64,000 bases of DNA. Origin: Sphingomonadales bacterium (GTDB taxonomy: Bacteria > Pseudomonadota > Alphaproteobacteria > Sphingomonadales > Sphingomonadaceae). Position 1 is the stretch's first letter. Each line of letters starts with the position of its first letter. Of this stretch, positions 1,836 through 56,342 are shown in pieces. The stretch is from positions 1-64,000 of the forward strand of contig CANIRZ010000004.1 in the NCBI GenBank assembly GCA_947470185.1. Reading direction: 5' to 3'. The notes beneath the pieces were generated by a model. That model was not told the origin of the DNA, did no database searches, and saw only the letters and a list, made by a program, of their open reading frames with translations. The translations under genes and the position numbers were made by a program.

Positions 1836-3050
1836 ATGCGAGGCATGATTCCTGCCATGCTTTTCGTTGCATTCCCTATTTGCGCGTCTCCGGCGATGGG
1901 AGGGACGGTTCAGAAAATATCCGCGCAGGACGGCGCTGTGATCGTGCAATTTGACGGTGTTGTCGACAGGGCGGATGTATTTACTCTCGCGGCACCTGAC
2001 CGCATTGCCATTGACGTATCTGGCGCGACGGCAGGTCAATCTGCATTTGCAGGGGGCTCGGTTCAAAACATTAGGCAGAGACAATTTAGCGCCGACACAG
2101 CGCGGATCGTCTTGGATCTCGCCGAACCCGCTGTTGTCACCAACGGCAATTTTTCCGCCGACGGAAAAAGCCTGCGCCTTAGCCTGCGGCCGGTGCCGCT
2201 GGCCGAGTTTTCTGGCACCGTCGCGCGCGGTAAAACCCAGATTATCCCTCCCGCCGCATTTCGCGCCGATCTGCCGAAGCGTCGGTATGAGGTTACTGCA
2301 CCCATTCGTGTAAATGTTGGCAAGGGCCTGCCACTGGTGAGTGGGCCGGCGGACGACAGCCTACCATTGGTGGTTATAGATGCAGGCCATGGCGGTCATG
2401 ACCCGGGTGCTATCAGTCCGCATGGCGGGCAGTTGGAAAAGGACGTGACGCTCTCCATTGCAAAGTCGGTCCGAGACGAAATGCTAAAAAGTGGACGCGT
2501 CCGTGTGGCCCTGACGCGCGATACGGACAAGTTTATAGTGCTGCAAGATCGCTTCCAAATGGCGCGTAAGTTACGTGCCGACCTGTTTATATCGATCCAT
2601 GCTGATAGCGCGGAAAGCCCAGAAGCAACGGGAGGGACGGTGTACACCCTGTCGGAAGTTGCTTCTGACCGCGAGGCGCAGCGGCTTGCAGCGCGTGAAA
2701 ACAAGGCCAACATTATTAACGGGGTGAATCTAGGCGGTGCCGACGCCAACGTTTCGTCGATCCTGATTGACCTTACCCAGCGCGAAACAATGAATGTCTC
2801 TGCGGACTTTGCAAAACTGTTGTTGCGGGAGGCAACGCCCAATATGCGCATTCCCGGCAATTCGCATCGGTTTGCTTCGTTTATTGTCTTAAAGGCACCG
2901 GATACCCCTTCGGTGCTCTTTGAAACGGGCTACCTCAGTAACGAAGCCGATGTCACTTTCTTGGCTTCCCAAAGCGGGCAGGGCAAGGTGGCGCGGGCGC
3001 TTGCCAATGCCATTCAAGTCCACTTTGCACGGCGGATTGCTTTGCGTTAA
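1836..3050 (+). CDS. amiC: N-acetylmuramoyl-L-alanine amidase (AmiC type)
   Basis: Periplasmic zinc amidase that cleaves the stem peptide from septal murein during daughter-cell separation. ATG 1836 is chosen over an upstream in-frame start because it follows GAGGT and opens directly with a signal peptide (MRGMIPAMLFVAFPICASPAMG); the product is 404 aa. An AMIN-like beta-rich domain occupies about residues 25-130. The Amidase_3 domain follows, with the zinc and active-site motifs VVIDAGHGGHDPGA, FISIHADS and VLFETGYLSNEAD in the expected order. The gene stands alone, 81 bases before the PBP gene in the same direction. Amidases of this type need a LytM activator; a fitting degenerate LytM lipoprotein is encoded at 29031-30047. 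Confidence 0.93.
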   Translation: MRGMIPAMLFVAFPICASPAMGGTVQKISAQDGAVIVQFDGVVDRADVFTLAAPDRIAIDVSGATAGQSAFAGGSVQNIRQRQFSADTARIVLDLAEPAVVTNGNFSADGKSLRLSLRPVPLAEFSGTVARGKTQIIPPAAFRADLPKRRYEVTAPIRVNVGKGLPLVSGPADDSLPLVVIDAGHGGHDPGAISPHGGQLEKDVTLSIAKSVRDEMLKSGRVRVALTRDTDKFIVLQDRFQMARKLRADLFISIHADSAESPEATGGTVYTLSEVASDREAQRLAARENKANIINGVNLGGADANVSSILIDLTQRETMNVSADFAKLLLREATPNMRIPGNSHRFASFIVLKAPDTPSVLFETGYLSNEADVTFLASQSGQGKVARALANAIQVHFARRIALR

Positions 3051-3131
3051 CGGGTAGTAGAAGCATTTTTGCGTCAATTTACTGATGAACTTTCTGGACC
3101 TGTTCGGCAAATCGGCTAGATAGTGCCCGCG

Positions 3132-5645
3132 ATGGATATAGTCCCCCCTCCTGCCGAAGTGCCAGATACGGTCAGTTACAGGCTGAAACGCAACGCCGAA
3201 GAATTTATCGAGCGTTGGCGGGGCTGGTGGCAAAGCAAGCGCTTTCGTTTGGCTACCTATGCAGTCGGCGCGCTTGTGGTCCTCTTCATTATATTCTGGG
3301 CGCTATTCGCGCGGAATCTTCCCGATGCGGAAGCGCTCGTTGAATATGAGTCGCCTTTGCCCACCGTGGTACGTGACGTTAACGGAGAACCATTTCACAG
3401 CTACGCCCGAGAACGCCGGGTCCAGTTGGAATATGCCGATTTTCCGAAGACTTTGGTGCACGCGTATCTTGCAGCCGAAGACAAAACATTCTTCAGCCAT
3501 GGCGGGATTGATTATCCCGGTATCGCGTCGGCCATTTTCGACAATATGTTCAGCAGTAAGCGATCGCGTGGTGCATCCACGATCACGCAGCAAGTTGCGA
3601 AAAACCTGCTTTTGACGAATGAATATAGCTACACCCGCAAAGTCAAAGAAGCGATTTTGGCAAAGCGGATCGAAAACGCGCTCACCAAACAGCAAATCCT
3701 GTCGCTATACCTTAACGAAATTGCGCTTGGACGTCAGTCATTCGGTGTCGAAGCTGCAGCGCAGGCCTATTTCGGCAAAAGCGTTAATCAACTCCAATTA
3801 CATGAAATGGCATTTTTAGCCATTCTTCCCAAAGCGCCCGAGCGCTATGGACGTGCTAAAAATGCGGCTGCTGCGATAGCGCGTCGTAACTGGGTTCTTG
3901 GTGAAATGCGCGCGAATGAATGGATTACCGAGGGGCAGCTTTTGGCTGCGCGCGCTCAACCCCTTGGCCTCGTGACGCAACGTGGCACGGGATATAAAAA
4001 CGTCGGCGGTTATTTCGCAGAAGAGGTGCGCCGCCAACTCATCGAAAAATTTGGTGAAACCGATGCTGCTGGTCCTTACAGCGTTTATTCCGGTGGTCTT
4101 TGGGTCCGGTCATCGATGAACCCGGAATATCAACTTCTTGCCACCCAAGCGTTGCGCGATGGGTTGTTGCGCTACAACGCCGGCAAGGCGTGGAAGGCAA
4201 ATCTTGGTAAAATTGACGTCAAAGATGATAATTGGGCAGCACGCTTTGCATCGAGCAACATTGGGATCGATTATGCAAACTGGCGCGCAGGCGTTGCCCT
4301 TGGCAAAGGTCGCGTCGGGTTTGCCGATGGCACCGTGGCCAAGTTGGATGGTGGACCCGCCGCAATGAAAGCAGGCGATGTCATTGCGGTTGCGCCCAAT
4401 GGCATAAACAGTTTTGCGGTCCGCAGCGTGCCTGAAGTCGGCGGCGGCATGGTTGTGCAAAATCCGCACAATGGCCGCGTGCTTGCTATACAAGGCGGTT
4501 TCGACAACCGTATTTCAAGCTTCAACCGGGCGACACAGGCGCAGCGTCAGCCTGGGTCTACGATCAAGCCCTTTGTCTACGCCGCCGCGCTGGACAATGG
4601 CATGACGCCCACATCAATCATCGTCGATGGTCCGTATTGCGTATGGCAGGGTGCCAATTTGGGCCAGAAATGCTTCCGCAATTTCGACGGCGGCGGGGCA
4701 GGGCCAAAAACCATGCGCTGGGGGCTTGAGCAATCACGCAACCTGATGACGGTGCGTGCTGCTACCGAAGCTGGTATGGACAATGTCACGGACACGTTCC
4801 GCGCAATGTCGATCGGCGATTATCCCGACTATCTCGCTTATGCACTTGGCGCAGGCGACACTACTGTGCTGAAAATGGTCAATGCTTATTCAATGCTCGT
4901 CAATCAAGGTCGCGAGCTTAAGCCAACGCTGATTGATTTTGCACAAAACCGAAAGGGCAAGGTAATCTGGCCAAGCAAATGGGCCCCATGCAAGGGTTGC
5001 CGTTCGGCGGATTGGAATGGCAAGCCCATGCCGCGATTTGCCGCGGCTGGTAAGCAGGTGATGGACCCCATCACCGCCTATCAAGTCGTGCACATGCTTG
5101 AAGGTGTCATTGAACGCGGAACAGCCGTGACGTTGCGTGAACTAAACCGGCCGTTATTTGGTAAGACGGGGACGACCACTGGGCCAACAAATGTTTGGTT
5201 CATTGGCGGATCGCCGCATCTTGTTGCTGGACTGTATTTGGGCTTTGACCAGCCACGCAACTTGGGCGGCTATGCGCAGGGTAGTTCAGTTGCTGCGCCG
5301 ATCTTTAAACAATTCGCGCGTGCGGCGATGGCCGATATGCCAAAAACGCCCTTCATTGCGCCTGCTGGAACGCGACTGGTGCGTGTTGACCGTAAGAGCG
5401 GTAAGCGCGTTTATGGCGCTTGGCCGGGCAACGACCCTCAGAACGACGTGATCTGGGAAGCGTTCAAGGCAGAAACTGAACCTAAGCGTTCTATCCGTCA
5501 GGAAGAATTGGCGGCGGGCGCTGAGAAACCAAAGAAAGAGGCTGAAACTCAGTCGAACATGGCCGGCGCAGTCAATGCGCCAAGTGCAAGTGTCGGCACA
5601 AAACGCGATCGAGAGTTTATCCAGCAAGAAGGCGGGATTTATTAG
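3132..5645 (+). CDS. mrcA: Penicillin-binding protein 1A, bifunctional transglycosylase/transpeptidase
   Basis: Inner-membrane class A PBP that polymerises and cross-links peptidoglycan. It has a short cytoplasmic N-terminus and one transmembrane segment (LATYAVGALVVLFIIFWALF). The GT51 transglycosylase domain follows, with EDKTFFSHGGID (catalytic Glu) and RGASTITQQVAKNL. The middle region contains a beta-rich OB-like insert characteristic of PBP1A. The transpeptidase domain has the SxxK serine in QPGSTIKPF, SRN, and KTGTT. The tail is charged and low in complexity. GTG 3123 is an alternative in-frame start three codons upstream; neither start has a strong ribosome site. At 837 aa the length is normal for the family. 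Confidence 0.94.
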   Translation: MDIVPPPAEVPDTVSYRLKRNAEEFIERWRGWWQSKRFRLATYAVGALVVLFIIFWALFARNLPDAEALVEYESPLPTVVRDVNGEPFHSYARERRVQLEYADFPKTLVHAYLAAEDKTFFSHGGIDYPGIASAIFDNMFSSKRSRGASTITQQVAKNLLLTNEYSYTRKVKEAILAKRIENALTKQQILSLYLNEIALGRQSFGVEAAAQAYFGKSVNQLQLHEMAFLAILPKAPERYGRAKNAAAAIARRNWVLGEMRANEWITEGQLLAARAQPLGLVTQRGTGYKNVGGYFAEEVRRQLIEKFGETDAAGPYSVYSGGLWVRSSMNPEYQLLATQALRDGLLRYNAGKAWKANLGKIDVKDDNWAARFASSNIGIDYANWRAGVALGKGRVGFADGTVAKLDGGPAAMKAGDVIAVAPNGINSFAVRSVPEVGGGMVVQNPHNGRVLAIQGGFDNRISSFNRATQAQRQPGSTIKPFVYAAALDNGMTPTSIIVDGPYCVWQGANLGQKCFRNFDGGGAGPKTMRWGLEQSRNLMTVRAATEAGMDNVTDTFRAMSIGDYPDYLAYALGAGDTTVLKMVNAYSMLVNQGRELKPTLIDFAQNRKGKVIWPSKWAPCKGCRSADWNGKPMPRFAAAGKQVMDPITAYQVVHMLEGVIERGTAVTLRELNRPLFGKTGTTTGPTNVWFIGGSPHLVAGLYLGFDQPRNLGGYAQGSSVAAPIFKQFARAAMADMPKTPFIAPAGTRLVRVDRKSGKRVYGAWPGNDPQNDVIWEAFKAETEPKRSIRQEELAAGAEKPKKEAETQSNMAGAVNAPSASVGTKRDREFIQQEGGIY

Positions 5646-52111: not shown

Positions 52112-53416
52112 ATGAAGAAAATCGTTTTCATTTCGATCAGCGCGCTTTTGCTTGCGGGTACGCCTCTGGCGGCGCAAACTGTTGATCAAGTCACGGTGGT
52201 TCATGCAGGAAGGTTGCTCGATAAGCCCGGCAGTGCACCGAACGGTCCATCCACCGTGATCATCCGCAATGGCAAGATTGTCGAAGTCTTGTCTGGCTAT
52301 CAACCCGGCCCAACAGGCGCGACGCTCATCGACCTTAAGGACAAGTTTGTTCTCCCGGGCCTTATCGATAGCCATGTGCACCTTGATAGTGATGCAGGCG
52401 GCGATGCGGCCTTGATCGAATCGTTCACCGATAGTCCGGCCCGTGCAGCCTATCGCACCGCTGGCAATGCCAAGAAGACATTGATGGCTGGCTTTACGAC
52501 CGTCCGCAATTTGGGCGACGGTAGTGGCGCGACATTGGCATTGCGCGATGCCGTCGCTGCCGGCGAATTGCCGGGCCCCCGCATCATTGACGCCGGTCGC
52601 TCTATTTCGACCACTAGCGGCCATATGGACGCAACCTTGTCGGTTTCGGAGGATCTTCATGGCAGTATTGGTCAGGAGAATCTGTGTGATGGTGTGGAAA
52701 GCTGCCGTCAGGCGGTGCGCAAGCAAATCCGACGCGGTGTCGACGTCATCAAAATCGCGACGACGGGCGGTGTAAACAGTCGTATCGGGTCGGGCTTAGG
52801 TCGTCAGATATTCGATGATGAGGTCAAGGCGTTGGTCGACACTGCGCATCTTTATGGCAAGAAAGTTGCCGTGCATGCGCATAGCGACGACGGCATCAAC
52901 GCCGCGCTTGCGGTGGGCGCAGACTCGATTGAGCATGGCACCATGCTGACCGATGAAAGTATCAAATTGTTCAAAGCGGCAGGCGCATATTATGTCCCAA
53001 CACTGTCGACGGTGAACGGCTACATTGAGAGGCTTGCGGCGAACCCCAATGCCTATCCACCCGATGTGCTTGCCAAAGTAAAATGGCGGATTGGCGTTAC
53101 GGGCAAAAGCCTTGCTAAAGCCTATCCAGCTGGCGTGAAGATTGCCTTTGGAACCGACGCAGGCGTTTCGAAGCACGGCAAAAATGCCGATGAATTTGAA
53201 CTGATGGTCAAATACGGTATGCCCGCCAGCGCCGCCATTCAAGCTGCAACGATGAACGCTGCAACGCTTTTAGGCGTCGATAAACAGGTCGGCTCGCTGG
53301 AGCCCGGCAAAGCTGCTGACTTGATAGCAGTCGCGGGTGACCCAATCGTGGATATCACAACCTTAAAATCCGTACGTTTTGTCATGAAGGATGGGCGGGT
53401 CTTCAAGGCCGAATGA
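52112..53416 (+). CDS. Secreted amidohydrolase-family protein
   Basis: 434 aa with a signal peptide (MKKIVFISISALLLAGTPLAAQ). The TIM-barrel metal site shows LIDSHVHLD (HxH), the lysine in DVIKIATTGG, AVHAHSDDGI, SIEHGTM and the aspartate in AFGTDAGVSKHG. The closest pattern is the imidazolonepropionase-like/prolidase-like periplasmic group, whose substrates are often peptides or cyclic amides. Its 3' end overlaps the convergent DUF2855 gene by 14 bases. Confidence 0.88.
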   Translation: MKKIVFISISALLLAGTPLAAQTVDQVTVVHAGRLLDKPGSAPNGPSTVIIRNGKIVEVLSGYQPGPTGATLIDLKDKFVLPGLIDSHVHLDSDAGGDAALIESFTDSPARAAYRTAGNAKKTLMAGFTTVRNLGDGSGATLALRDAVAAGELPGPRIIDAGRSISTTSGHMDATLSVSEDLHGSIGQENLCDGVESCRQAVRKQIRRGVDVIKIATTGGVNSRIGSGLGRQIFDDEVKALVDTAHLYGKKVAVHAHSDDGINAALAVGADSIEHGTMLTDESIKLFKAAGAYYVPTLSTVNGYIERLAANPNAYPPDVLAKVKWRIGVTGKSLAKAYPAGVKIAFGTDAGVSKHGKNADEFELMVKYGMPASAAIQAATMNAATLLGVDKQVGSLEPGKAADLIAVAGDPIVDITTLKSVRFVMKDGRVFKAE

Positions 53417-54491
53417 TGATCCCTTTTTGCGGATCCGTTTTGCCTTGAAGTGTCTCAATAAAGGCCGTCGTAGCCGATTGAAGGCCTTTGTGTTCTTCTA
53501 CCTCGACAATGCCGTGCGCCGCGGCAAGGAAACTTTTCCAGCTGCGGCCGACAGCTTCGCCAAAACCTTTTGGTCCTAATTCTTGGATCGTAGCGACCGC
53601 GTGGTCGGGGGCGAAGAACAGAACGGGTTTTGGCCCCGGCATGGTCTCGCCGCTTGCACCCGCACTATTTGGACCACGCGCGTCAACATGGGTGGCCCCT
53701 ACAAGGCAGCTATACGCTAGGTTGCCTGCTAGAGTGTAATGGATCGAGCGCAGCAGTGAAGAGTTGCCGGCGAAGTCGACGCAAACAGACGCGCTTTGGG
53801 GCAGGGCACTGACGTCGTCATAGGCCATGACGTCATCATATAGTCCAGTGCCCTTCACGAAACCTAAATTGCCTTTCGACGTCAGGCCAATACGCTTGAT
53901 ATCGGGCGACAGGTCTCTCGCTACGCTCGCAAGCCCCATTGCGGTTTTTGATGACGCGCTCGTAATGACCATGTTTTGCGCGCCGAACCAGCGTTCACGG
54001 CGGAGCATCGCTTCAATAAGGAAACCGGTTTTGAACAAAGGTCCGAAAAGCATCCGCTCTGCCTCTTTGGCTGGGTCATGTTCGGGGTCTGCGGCAAGGC
54101 GGCTATATTGATTGTATATGGGGCTCATCGGTTGCCGGTGCGCGGCCATGTCCGTAAAGCCACTTTGGTTCACTTTACCGGGTAAAACATCAAGATGCGT
54201 CCCCATAGGCAGATAGCCATAGACGCGCTCGCCGACTGCGATATCCGGGTGGCGCGATTCTTCGACAATCGCGTGCCCCCACATCGGCACAACGCCAAAA
54301 TCACCTTCCGCAGGAAAGAAATTCCAATAACCGAACACGTCGCCAATGACGGCGTACGTTATATTGTTTGCAGTGACGGAGAAACTTTCGATTCGCAAAC
54401 GGACAGCGCCCTCGCTTAACATGGGCATTGGCGCCTCATTAACATGCGTTTGCGTCAAAGCCTGTTTATGTACCCAGATAGTCGATGCCAT
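53403..54491 (-). CDS. DUF2855 family protein
   Basis: 362 aa; related in layout to medium-chain reductases but assigned to DUF2855: RLRIESFSVTANNITYAVIGD, YWNFFPAEGDFGVVPMWGHA, then a Rossmann-like segment VITSASSKTAMGLASVARDL. Function unknown; homologues appear beside acyl-CoA and aromatic degradation genes. It is transcribed away from ribB, so its promoter shares the 130-base gap that contains the ribB operator. Confidence 0.8.
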   Translation of the reverse strand: MASTIWVHKQALTQTHVNEAPMPMLSEGAVRLRIESFSVTANNITYAVIGDVFGYWNFFPAEGDFGVVPMWGHAIVEESRHPDIAVGERVYGYLPMGTHLDVLPGKVNQSGFTDMAAHRQPMSPIYNQYSRLAADPEHDPAKEAERMLFGPLFKTGFLIEAMLRRERWFGAQNMVITSASSKTAMGLASVARDLSPDIKRIGLTSKGNLGFVKGTGLYDDVMAYDDVSALPQSASVCVDFAGNSSLLRSIHYTLAGNLAYSCLVGATHVDARGPNSAGASGETMPGPKPVLFFAPDHAVATIQELGPKGFGEAVGRSWKSFLAAAHGIVEVEEHKGLQSATTAFIETLQGKTDPQKGIIIRP

Positions 54492-54558: not shown

Positions 54559-54586
54559 TTGCGCGCTCCGATGTGATTTGTATCTT
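54559..54586 (+). promoter_or_regulatory. ribB: Candidate promoter of the ribB operon
   Basis: TTGCGC (54559-54564), 16 bases, then TATCTT (54581-54586) give a moderate sigma70-type promoter. The start would be near 54593, inside the palindrome described in the next entry, leaving a leader of about 30 bases. No FMN riboswitch fits in this short leader. Confidence 0.45.
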
Positions 54587-54608
54587 TGACAATCACATCA
54601 GGATGTGA
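54570..54608. promoter_or_regulatory. ribB: Operator-like array of three half-sites before ribB
   Basis: Half-site GATGTGATT (54570-54578), its exact inverse AATCACATC (54591-54599), and GATGTGA (54602-54608). The last two form the perfect palindrome TCACATC-AG-GATGTGA. The first and third copies are 32 bases apart, about three helix turns. The array covers the promoter spacer and expected start site, 13 bases before the ribB ATG: the place for a repressor. The obvious candidate regulator is the HTH-like segment of RibB itself. Confidence 0.7.
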
Positions 54609-54621
54609 AAATAGGCGAATC

Positions 54622-55923
54622 ATGAGCATTCAACTGATCACTAAACTTCGCAGCCTCGTCAACGACGGCGGCCTTTCACGGTCCGGCCTTGCACGCGCGG
54701 CGGGCCTTCATGCCAACACTTTGCGTGATTTGGATGAGCCGGGCTGGAACCCGACTGCGGAAACGCTTCGTAAGCTGGAAAGCTACTTATTTTCCAATGA
54801 TGACACGCCTGCGCTGGTGTCGATTGAGGAGATCATTGAAGAGGCGCGCAACGGACGGATGTATATTCTTGTCGATGATGAAGATCGAGAGAATGAAGGG
54901 GACTTGATCATTCCGGCGCAAATGGCGACGCCAGATGCGATTAATTTTATGGCAACACATGGTCGAGGCTTAATCTGTCTTTCCATGACCAAGGCTCGAT
55001 GCGAGCAGCTTGGCCTAACGCCTATGGCGCGGGAAAACCGCGAAAGCATGCAGACCGCGTTCACGGTGTCCATAGAAGCCCGTGAGGGCGTTACGACCGG
55101 CATCAGCGCCGGTGACCGCGCACGCACCATTTCTGTCGCTGTGGATGCGTCCATGGGGCCTGACGACATTGTTTCGCCCGGTCATGTCTTCCCGCTCACC
55201 GCACGCGATGGTGGCGTTCTGGTGCGTGCAGGCCATACGGAGGCTGCGGTCGACATTAGCCGGCTTGCAGGACTCAATCCTTCCGGCGTGATCTGCGAGA
55301 TCATGAAGGATGATGGGACGATGGCGCGGATGGACGACCTTGTCGCCTTCGCCCGCATGCACAACCTGAAAATGGGAACAATCCGGGACCTAATCGCCTA
55401 TCGCCGTAAGCATGATCATTTGGTCGAAAAGCGGGCGGAGATGAAATTCAACAGTCGCTGGGGTGGCGATTGGACGGCCATGACCTTCTACAATAAGGCC
55501 ACCGGCGACGAGACCATCGCATTGGTCAAGGGACGCATTGATCCTGAAAAACCGACATTGGTTCGTATGCACACCATGTCCATGTTCGTTGATGTATTTG
55601 GCGAAGAAAACGAACGATCGGGTTTGCTGTCACGGTCGATGGACGCAATAGCCGCCGAAGGCACTGGCGTGATCGTGGTCATCAACAAGCCGATGAAGGG
55701 CGTTGTCTCGCGCTTCATGCAGTTGCGCGCGGAAGGCAAGCAAGCCGGCGCGCCAGAGATAGAAGAGCTGCGCGACTATGGCGGCGGCGCGCAAATCCTG
55801 ACCGAACTTGGTGTGCAGGACATGATATTGCTGACCAACACACATCACACGCTGGTCGGGCTTGAAGGCTACGGCCTTTCCATTGTAGGCGAGCGGCCTA
55901 TTCCCGGCACCGGAGGCGAATAA
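54622..55923 (+). CDS. ribB: HTH - DHBP synthase (RibB) - GTP cyclohydrolase II-like fusion
   Basis: 433 aa from ATG 54622 with AGGCGA upstream. Residues 1-57 form a lambda-repressor-like [23 protein letters not shown], then [14 protein letters not shown]. Residues about 65-265 are a complete 3,4-dihydroxy-2-butanone-4-phosphate synthase: the acidic metal loop [41 protein letters not shown]. The last 165 residues follow the GTP cyclohydrolase II fold to its end ([29 protein letters not shown]) but lack the zinc cysteine cluster, so that activity is probably lost. RibB supplies the four-carbon unit of riboflavin; ribH follows with one-base overlap. The HTH suggests self-regulation. Confidence 0.9.
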
Positions 55924-56342
55924 TGGCAAAGTTCCTTATAGTTGAAGCACGATTTTATGACCATCTGAACGACATGCTCGTTTCAGGCGCTAAGGCCGCG
56001 TTAAAGGCCAAGGGTCATGAGGTTGAGGTTATCACTGTGCCCGGCGCGCTTGAAATACCAGGCACTATTGCCATGGCTGCAGAAGCGCAAATATATGACG
56101 GATTTGTCGCCATTGGTGTTGTTATTCGCGGTGAAACCTACCATTTTGAGATTGTTGCAGGTGAAAGCGCGCGGGGTATCATGGCCTTGACGATGGATGG
56201 CATCGCAATCGGTAACGGCATATTGACCGTCGAAAACGAAGAGCAGGCGATTGTGCGCGCTGATCCTAAGCAGAAAGATAAGGGCGGCGAGGCTGCTGTT
56301 GCTGCGATGGCCTTGCTAAATCTGCAAAATCGTTTCAACTGA
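55923..56342 (+). CDS. ribH: 6,7-Dimethyl-8-ribityllumazine synthase
   Basis: Joins the RibB product to the pyrimidine to form lumazine, the penultimate step to riboflavin. 139 aa. Substrate-site motifs: [36 protein letters not shown] (catalytic His) and [12 protein letters not shown]. Shares a base with the ribB stop and lies only 4 bases before mccB, tying flavin synthesis to the carboxylase genes. ribD, ribE and a full ribA are not in this window. Confidence 0.95.

Follow-up and report, generated by a model that had tools for sequence, protein, structure and literature searches.

In most Sphingomonadaceae genomes searched, the riboflavin enzyme RibB is preceded in the same chain by a helix-turn-helix (HTH) domain of the Cro/C1 type, and, in the loci and genomes examined for it, the promoter of its gene bears a matching inverted repeat with hardly any other copy in the genome. 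It is therefore very likely that the enzyme regulates its own synthesis. We propose, with good confidence, that this protein, HTH-RibBX, is a single-target trigger enzyme repressing its own ribB(-ribH) unit. The gene lies in a 64,000-nucleotide stretch of DNA, here called the window (Table 1), and presumably forms one transcription unit with ribH. The architecture of the protein, its conservation, the site, the near-uniqueness of that site in the genome and the way HTH and site are present or absent together were computed directly.

Table 1. Features of the ribB region in the window
Feature	Position	Strand	Basis or remark
DUF2855 gene, divergent from ribB	53403-54491	-	130-bp intergenic stretch to ribB
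O2, half-site GATGTGA (54570-54576) in register of a second site	54561-54576		32 bp upstream of O1; 5 of 14 mismatches
-35-like TTGACA	54586-54591	+	One base before O1; read from sequence
O1, operator-like site TCACATCAGGATGTGA	54593-54608		Perfect inverted repeat, arms 7, spacer 2; 13 nt before start codon
-10-like region AAATAG after O1	54609-54614	+	Weak here; read from sequence
HTH-RibBX gene	54622-55923	+	433 codons and stop, single open frame; ORF reading
HTH domain, Cro/C1-type, residues 1-61	54622-54804	+	Pfam, model, Foldseek, conserved motif
RibB domain, residues 69-260	54826-55401	+	Pfam PF00926, E 4.6e-85; 12 motif residues checked
GCHII-like X domain (residues 271-425) lacking the zinc cysteines	55432-55896	+	Pfam PF00925, E 8.8e-35; no Cys in 265-433; best PDB sequence match 6mnz
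ribH (lumazine synthase)	55923-56342	+	PF00885, E 1.1e-42; 1-bp overlap with ribB stop codon

A Cro/C1-type head on a RibBX protein

The HTH is absent from a Pfam scan of the whole 433-residue protein, and the fragment 1-61 falls short of the curated cut-offs (HTH_3, 18.4 bits where 23 are needed; HTH_31 and HTH_26 likewise). Among 24 homologous N-termini at E <= 0.1, HTH_26 matched 19 and HTH_3 matched 17. The full-length AlphaFold model was modest (38 rows, pLDDT 73.5), so the head was modelled alone: residues 1-65 (51 rows) gave a pLDDT of 83.6 and helices at 2-15, 20-27, 33-36 and 46-60. Most of the 50 Foldseek matches listed for this model were Cro/C1-type regulators (CapH, HipB, SinR, DdrO, C proteins), with probabilities mostly near 1 and, among the matches listed, none with E < 0.1. 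Helix layout and fold thus place the head in the Cro/C1 type, with Foldseek E values above 0.1 and Pfam scores below the gathering score. A preliminary description, made from the window's sequence, had proposed an N-terminal HTH and suggested HMM searches and structure prediction; the four-helix model, the Cro/C1 fold matches and the Pfam matches of homologues uphold it. Its more exact expectation, that residues 1-57 would form an HTH in prediction, held for the head modelled alone but not for the full-length model, in which DSSP assigned no recognition helix (helix 33-36 was missing).

Homologue alignments place a strongly conserved sequence motif in the head, in two blocks of 15 and 12 residues. 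Selection on the HTH codons is purifying: of the 15 pairs computed, with a 16th left out, none had a dN/dS above about 0.31; dN of the HTH exceeded that of RibB in most pairs.

Behind the head, the RibB domain is intact by its PF00926 score and its motif residues. The 12 residues checked were kept throughout 129 aligned rows, except that E87 was D in 4, and the earlier statement that all RibB motifs are present stands.

The tail (residues 265-433) contains no cysteine, as had been noted before. When aligned with Mtb RibBA (4i14), its three zinc positions read S320, E331 and S333, and the protein lacks the GCHII zinc site of a bifunctional RibBA. Tail cysteines were absent from 64 of the 88 HTH-bearing rows and one or more were present in 24; a cysteine stood somewhere in the tail of 16 of 27 rows from other families and of none of the 14 rows within the family that lack the HTH. 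Since some rows have tail cysteines and the HTH-less rows have none, no conserved cysteine set exists elsewhere in the tail. The zinc positions held no cysteine in the 27 other-family rows either (one position covers 25 of the 27). H317, D324, G387 and G389 were invariant in 129 of 129 rows, and K took the place of R384 in 12 of the 27 rows from other families.

Because the 14 HTH-less rows also lack the zinc cysteines, the head and the cysteine loss are not linked, and we rejected the co-occurrence that the preliminary description had wanted surveyed. Its picture of a dead GCHII tail survives as far as the missing zinc cysteines go, but the feature is found beyond the HTH protein, since this tail is what the known RibBX family carries as its X domain. 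Judged by domain content, RibB with a zinc-less GCHII-like domain is RibBX, and the HTH is the new part.

RibBX is said to have been described by Brutinel in 2013. The closest PDB entry by sequence, 6mnz, is titled A. baumannii RibBX in the Foldseek table; it aligns from its own residue 3 to residue 65 here and therefore has no such head. In the portion available to us, one paper names RibBX fusions, which lack the zinc-binding residues, in Shewanella, Aeromonas and Bradyrhizobium; it reports that an E. coli ribA mutant gained no GCHII activity from the Aeromonas protein, and that in Shewanella the X domain regulates RibB activity by a mechanism given as unknown (PMC10012899). As would suit a RibBX, a second, better-scoring GCHII was found in all 14 near-complete relatives examined; in the window's own genome (63% complete), the sole GCHII found was the one in ribB. 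Unlike RibBX elsewhere, the protein here has a 60-residue HTH ahead of RibB and an operator-like site at its promoter.

An operator-like repeat at the ribB promoter

Comparison of the 130 nt upstream of 88 HTH-bearing genes gave a consensus site, the 16-bp inverted repeat TCACATTNNAATGTGA. We scored it over 14 positions in the 150 nt before the start codon at 102 loci, 88 HTH-bearing and 14 HTH-less, of which 30 came from the homology search itself and 72 were picked from its score-ordered rows for genus spread; the 14 of 102 are no frequency, because 11 of them were fetched on purpose. Start codons were chosen by script and are approximate for the HTH-less loci. All 88 HTH-bearing loci had a site with 4 mismatches or fewer out of 14 (0 mismatches in 20, 1 in 34, 2 in 25, 3 in 7 and 4 in 2), versus none of the 14 HTH-less loci, where the best match had 5 to 8 mismatches. 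Control stretches 750-900 nt upstream of the 88 genes held a 3-mismatch site in 2 and no better than 5 mismatches in 86. With 200 shuffles per stretch, the observed score was reached at four loci (L003, L010, L030 and L077), 1-4 times each.

All 14 HTH-less ribB genes sit directly behind ribE, and the loss of the site may therefore follow the loss of a separate promoter. Among loci in that position, however, the site was present at all 19 with the HTH and at none of the 14 without it. These 14 loci, all lacking the site, are the family's HTH-less rows in the protein tree (below), where the HTH-less label takes 7 changes by parsimony, a point in favour of autoregulation. In a second, partly overlapping sample of named genomes, all 79 loci with upstream DNA had the site within 110 nt at no more than 3 mismatches; this set of 80 includes one locus with just 9 upstream bases, one cut by a contig end and one with a broken frame.

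Whole-genome searches placed the site at ribB. Exact TCACATYNNRATGTGA occurred in 16 of 40 genomes, once in each and always at ribB, and the reversed control nowhere. Exact TCACATNNNNATGTGA, sought in 46 genomes (31 with the HTH, 14 without and one from another family), had 19 places, all at ribB and none in the 14 HTH-less genomes, versus one place for the reversed control; 12 of the 31 HTH-bearing genomes have inexact copies alone. With one mismatch to TCACATTNNAATGTGA allowed, 30 genomes (25 with the HTH, 5 without) gave 21 places, 19 of them at ribB, and the reversed control one; the other two were G005:C1:2782741, in an HTH-less genome, and G131:C4:43146. No further target gene appeared at exact stringency in the 46 genomes, and at that stringency the site, as a candidate operator, serves ribB alone. 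In the window, the divergent DUF2855 gene shares the 130-bp intergenic region with ribB, so the site might affect that gene here as well.

These results bear on the earlier proposal of a riboflavin enzyme that also binds DNA. The part that comparison can reach, the presence or absence of the site together with the HTH, is strongly supported; taken as a whole, the proposal is supported in part. Enzyme and putative DNA-binding domain stand in one chain by sequence and model, and a conserved operator-like site accompanies them. HTH-RibBX thus very likely binds DNA at its own promoter.

Mode of action and its alternatives

The best site starts at -25 to -32 in 61 of the 88 loci. In these 61, CACA and TGTG are invariant or nearly so, site position -6 is T in 47 (a TTGAC-like -35), and positions +16 and +17 are T in 42 and A in 50 (the start of a -10). 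Of the best sites of all 88 loci, 54 have TTG near -35, 45 have TA at the -10 position and 29 have both. Often the site appears to take up the spacer that separates the -35-like from the -10-like element, and a transcript would then start near the ATG. In 43 of the 88 loci, a second site with no more than 5 mismatches was found at 21-45 bp upstream of the best one, with 39 of the 43 at 29-33 bp; a null window yielded such a site in 1 of 88.

This second site gives some weight to activation, with HTH-RibBX binding the site and switching on its own promoter, either in a MerR-like manner or through contact with RNA polymerase from O2. The second site, about 32 bp upstream of O1, stands in a position that activators often use, and at some loci (for example, L024, L038, L046, L063 and L073) the upstream site is the better or the sole one found. 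However, the best site in 61 of 88 loci falls in or next to the promoter spacer, and a spacer position is typical of repressors. We regard activation as unlikely and repression, overall, as probable.

The association of head and site comes from sequence comparison, which would also accommodate an unlinked transcription factor on the repeat, with the RibB HTH doing something else (protein contact, or membrane or RNA binding). That HTH and site come and go together, also among the loci behind ribE, argues against such a factor, and the exact site, present at no other place in 46 genomes, would be odd for a general regulator.

Relatives of the HTH outside RibB argue the same way. Two are free-standing: L202 (94 residues), from another family of the order, and L215 (about 72 residues), from another family of the class, the latter 49% identical to the ribB HTH over 53 residues. 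Both have palindromes before their own genes, CGCATTAAAATGCG at -27 and CGCATAGTTATGCG at -56 for L202, and CGCATAAAGATGCG at -25 and the related TCGCACTGAAGTGCGA at -75 for L215, counted from the chosen ATG. The palindromes at -27 and -25 share a like half-site, CGCATNNNNATGCG (CGCAT...ATGCG), which matches the ribB site in half-site and spacing except for A to G at one position (CGCAT versus CACAT). Unlike HTH-RibBX, these proteins have no fused enzyme, and they may form a family of autorepressors that share one operator plan. With these relatives considered, an unlinked factor is quite improbable.

A third relative, L201 (491 residues; family f5, another family of the order; G034:C1:1171500-1175500, minus strand), joins an HTH 48% identical to that of ribB over 54 residues to CoaBC (Pfam Flavoprotein and DFP). 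Like HTH-RibBX, it sets the same kind of HTH ahead of a cofactor-pathway enzyme, but the pathway is that of coenzyme A, and no like palindrome was found upstream. From the three cases, the HTH-operator module seems older than its fusion to RibB.

Least credible, and very improbable, is an RNA hairpin in the ribB leader exerting translational control: an inverted repeat near a start codon would suit it, but pairing-breaking C-A combinations occur at two inner pairs (in 11 and 12 of 88 loci), compensatory changes do not exceed the expectation under independence at any pair, the repeat, with a -35 just before it, would precede the expected transcript start, and apart from a tRNA the window has no Rfam match. 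Across the 88 loci the two arms show no more covariation than independence would give, so the argument from symmetry rests on conservation.

We therefore return to repression of the unit by its own enzyme. Once RibBX had gained its Cro/C1 HTH, probably a single time near the base of the Sphingomonadaceae, a RibB-type homodimer would place two HTHs on the 16-bp repeat at its own promoter, often helped by the second copy, some three helical turns farther upstream. Since the -35/-10 spacer tends to be occupied by the repeat, binding would exclude RNA polymerase and hold down expression of ribB(-ribH). We infer binding, dimer geometry and repression rather than activation from the comparisons above. 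That ribulose 5-phosphate in RibB, or GTP or a flavin in X, changes DNA binding is a guess to which we give about even chances. The preliminary description's idea of the tail as a nucleotide or flavin sensor would fall under the same guess.

Spread of the head and riboflavin control

An HTH profile matched 246 of 298 Sphingomonadaceae genomes, in 72 of 91 genera, and all the matches listed lay in open frames of 417 codons or more; among the 246, at least two were weak (G687, 2.2e-4; G804, 5.6e-5). A peculiarity of one genome was thereby rejected. The named sample comprised the best 80 of 589 confirmed stretches; among these 80 were Sphingopyxis, Novosphingobium, Sphingomonas and Chakrabartia, and the nearest named was Sphingorhabdus; from these names we took the family to be Sphingomonadaceae. 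The 28 full-length RibBX rows found in 26 genomes from the order's other families all begin at query residue 60-69, without the HTH, and no HTH match at RibB was found in those 26 genomes. A set of 60 genomes (58 from other families of the order, 2 Sphingomonadaceae) yielded 3 HTH matches, none of them RibB. Across 385 genomes of the class, 13 had an HTH match: 4 were the fused form in Sphingomonadaceae and 9 were other frames, none of them RibB when read by eye.

In a tree of 129 RibBX rows (quick method, no bootstrap, midpoint-rooted), 102 Sphingomonadaceae rows and L219, an HTH-less row from another family, formed one supported group. Parsimony counted 9 changes for the HTH label (4 forced by starred branches) and 7 for the HTH-less label (2 forced). 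These label changes would fit one HTH gain, probably near the base of the Sphingomonadaceae, and several losses. L219 (G054, family f8) comes from a genome with three full-length RibBX rows; no operator was found upstream of it (best match, 6 mismatches within 200 nt), and a horizontal transfer without the head is possible.

Two Sphingomonadaceae genomes of genus g3, G157 and G243, both listed as 100% complete, had neither a RibBX nor an HTH match; they are possibly riboflavin auxotrophs, or RibB has been replaced. At another locus, L004, a gene for an EamA/DMT-type transporter (2807-3643; Pfam was run on L004 alone) lies between ribB and ribH; L020 and L021 have frames similar to it, and in L005 ribH stands at the same distance. 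Some transporters of the EamA/DMT superfamily carry riboflavin (RibN).

Riboflavin genes are controlled, according to the part of a review available to us, by FMN riboswitches, RibR and fungal factors, and the term 'DNA-binding' is absent from its main text (PMC12542839). Under strict filters, with which weak matches are lost, no FMN riboswitch was found in 47 Sphingomonadaceae genomes, HTH-bearing or not; the same search found one in 7 of 14 control genomes. Such a riboswitch at the ribB-ribH unit was rejected, there being none in the window and none in the 47 family genomes, and HTH-less members must therefore use something else or express the genes constitutively. The sole FMN riboswitch found in 65 genomes searched (G004:C1:1016625-1017534) belongs to a different family of the order and is next to a short, second copy of RibB.

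Enzymes that regulate through a DNA-binding domain of their own are known. Archaeal RbkR joins an HTH to riboflavin kinase; HTH-RibBX resembles it as a flavin-pathway enzyme fused to an HTH and differs in the enzyme and in the domain of life. For E. coli, the portion available to us of a paper on trigger enzymes lists PutA, BirA and NadR as having a DNA-binding domain, with PutA reported as a single-target regulator of its own locus (PMC8249747). HTH-RibBX would work as PutA does in that description, its built-in DNA-binding domain acting on one target, the locus that encodes it; unlike PutA, BirA and NadR, it combines another enzyme, of an anabolic pathway, with a Cro/C1 HTH, and its binding is predicted from sequence. 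In titles and abstract openings among the best matches in open-licence PMC literature, we found no paper on an HTH-fused RibB.

Across most of the Sphingomonadaceae, we think it fairly likely that HTH-RibBX is a dedicated single-target repressor of its own gene, derived by fusing an autorepressor's HTH and operator type to RibBX, with HTH-CoaBC as a second, independent use of the same type. If true, a vitamin biosynthetic enzyme would join the short list of trigger enzymes. The finding suggests a portable HTH-operator module that has been attached to cofactor enzymes, and the question of how these bacteria set their riboflavin supply is directly testable with the protein named here, its candidate 16-bp site and relatives that naturally lack the HTH.
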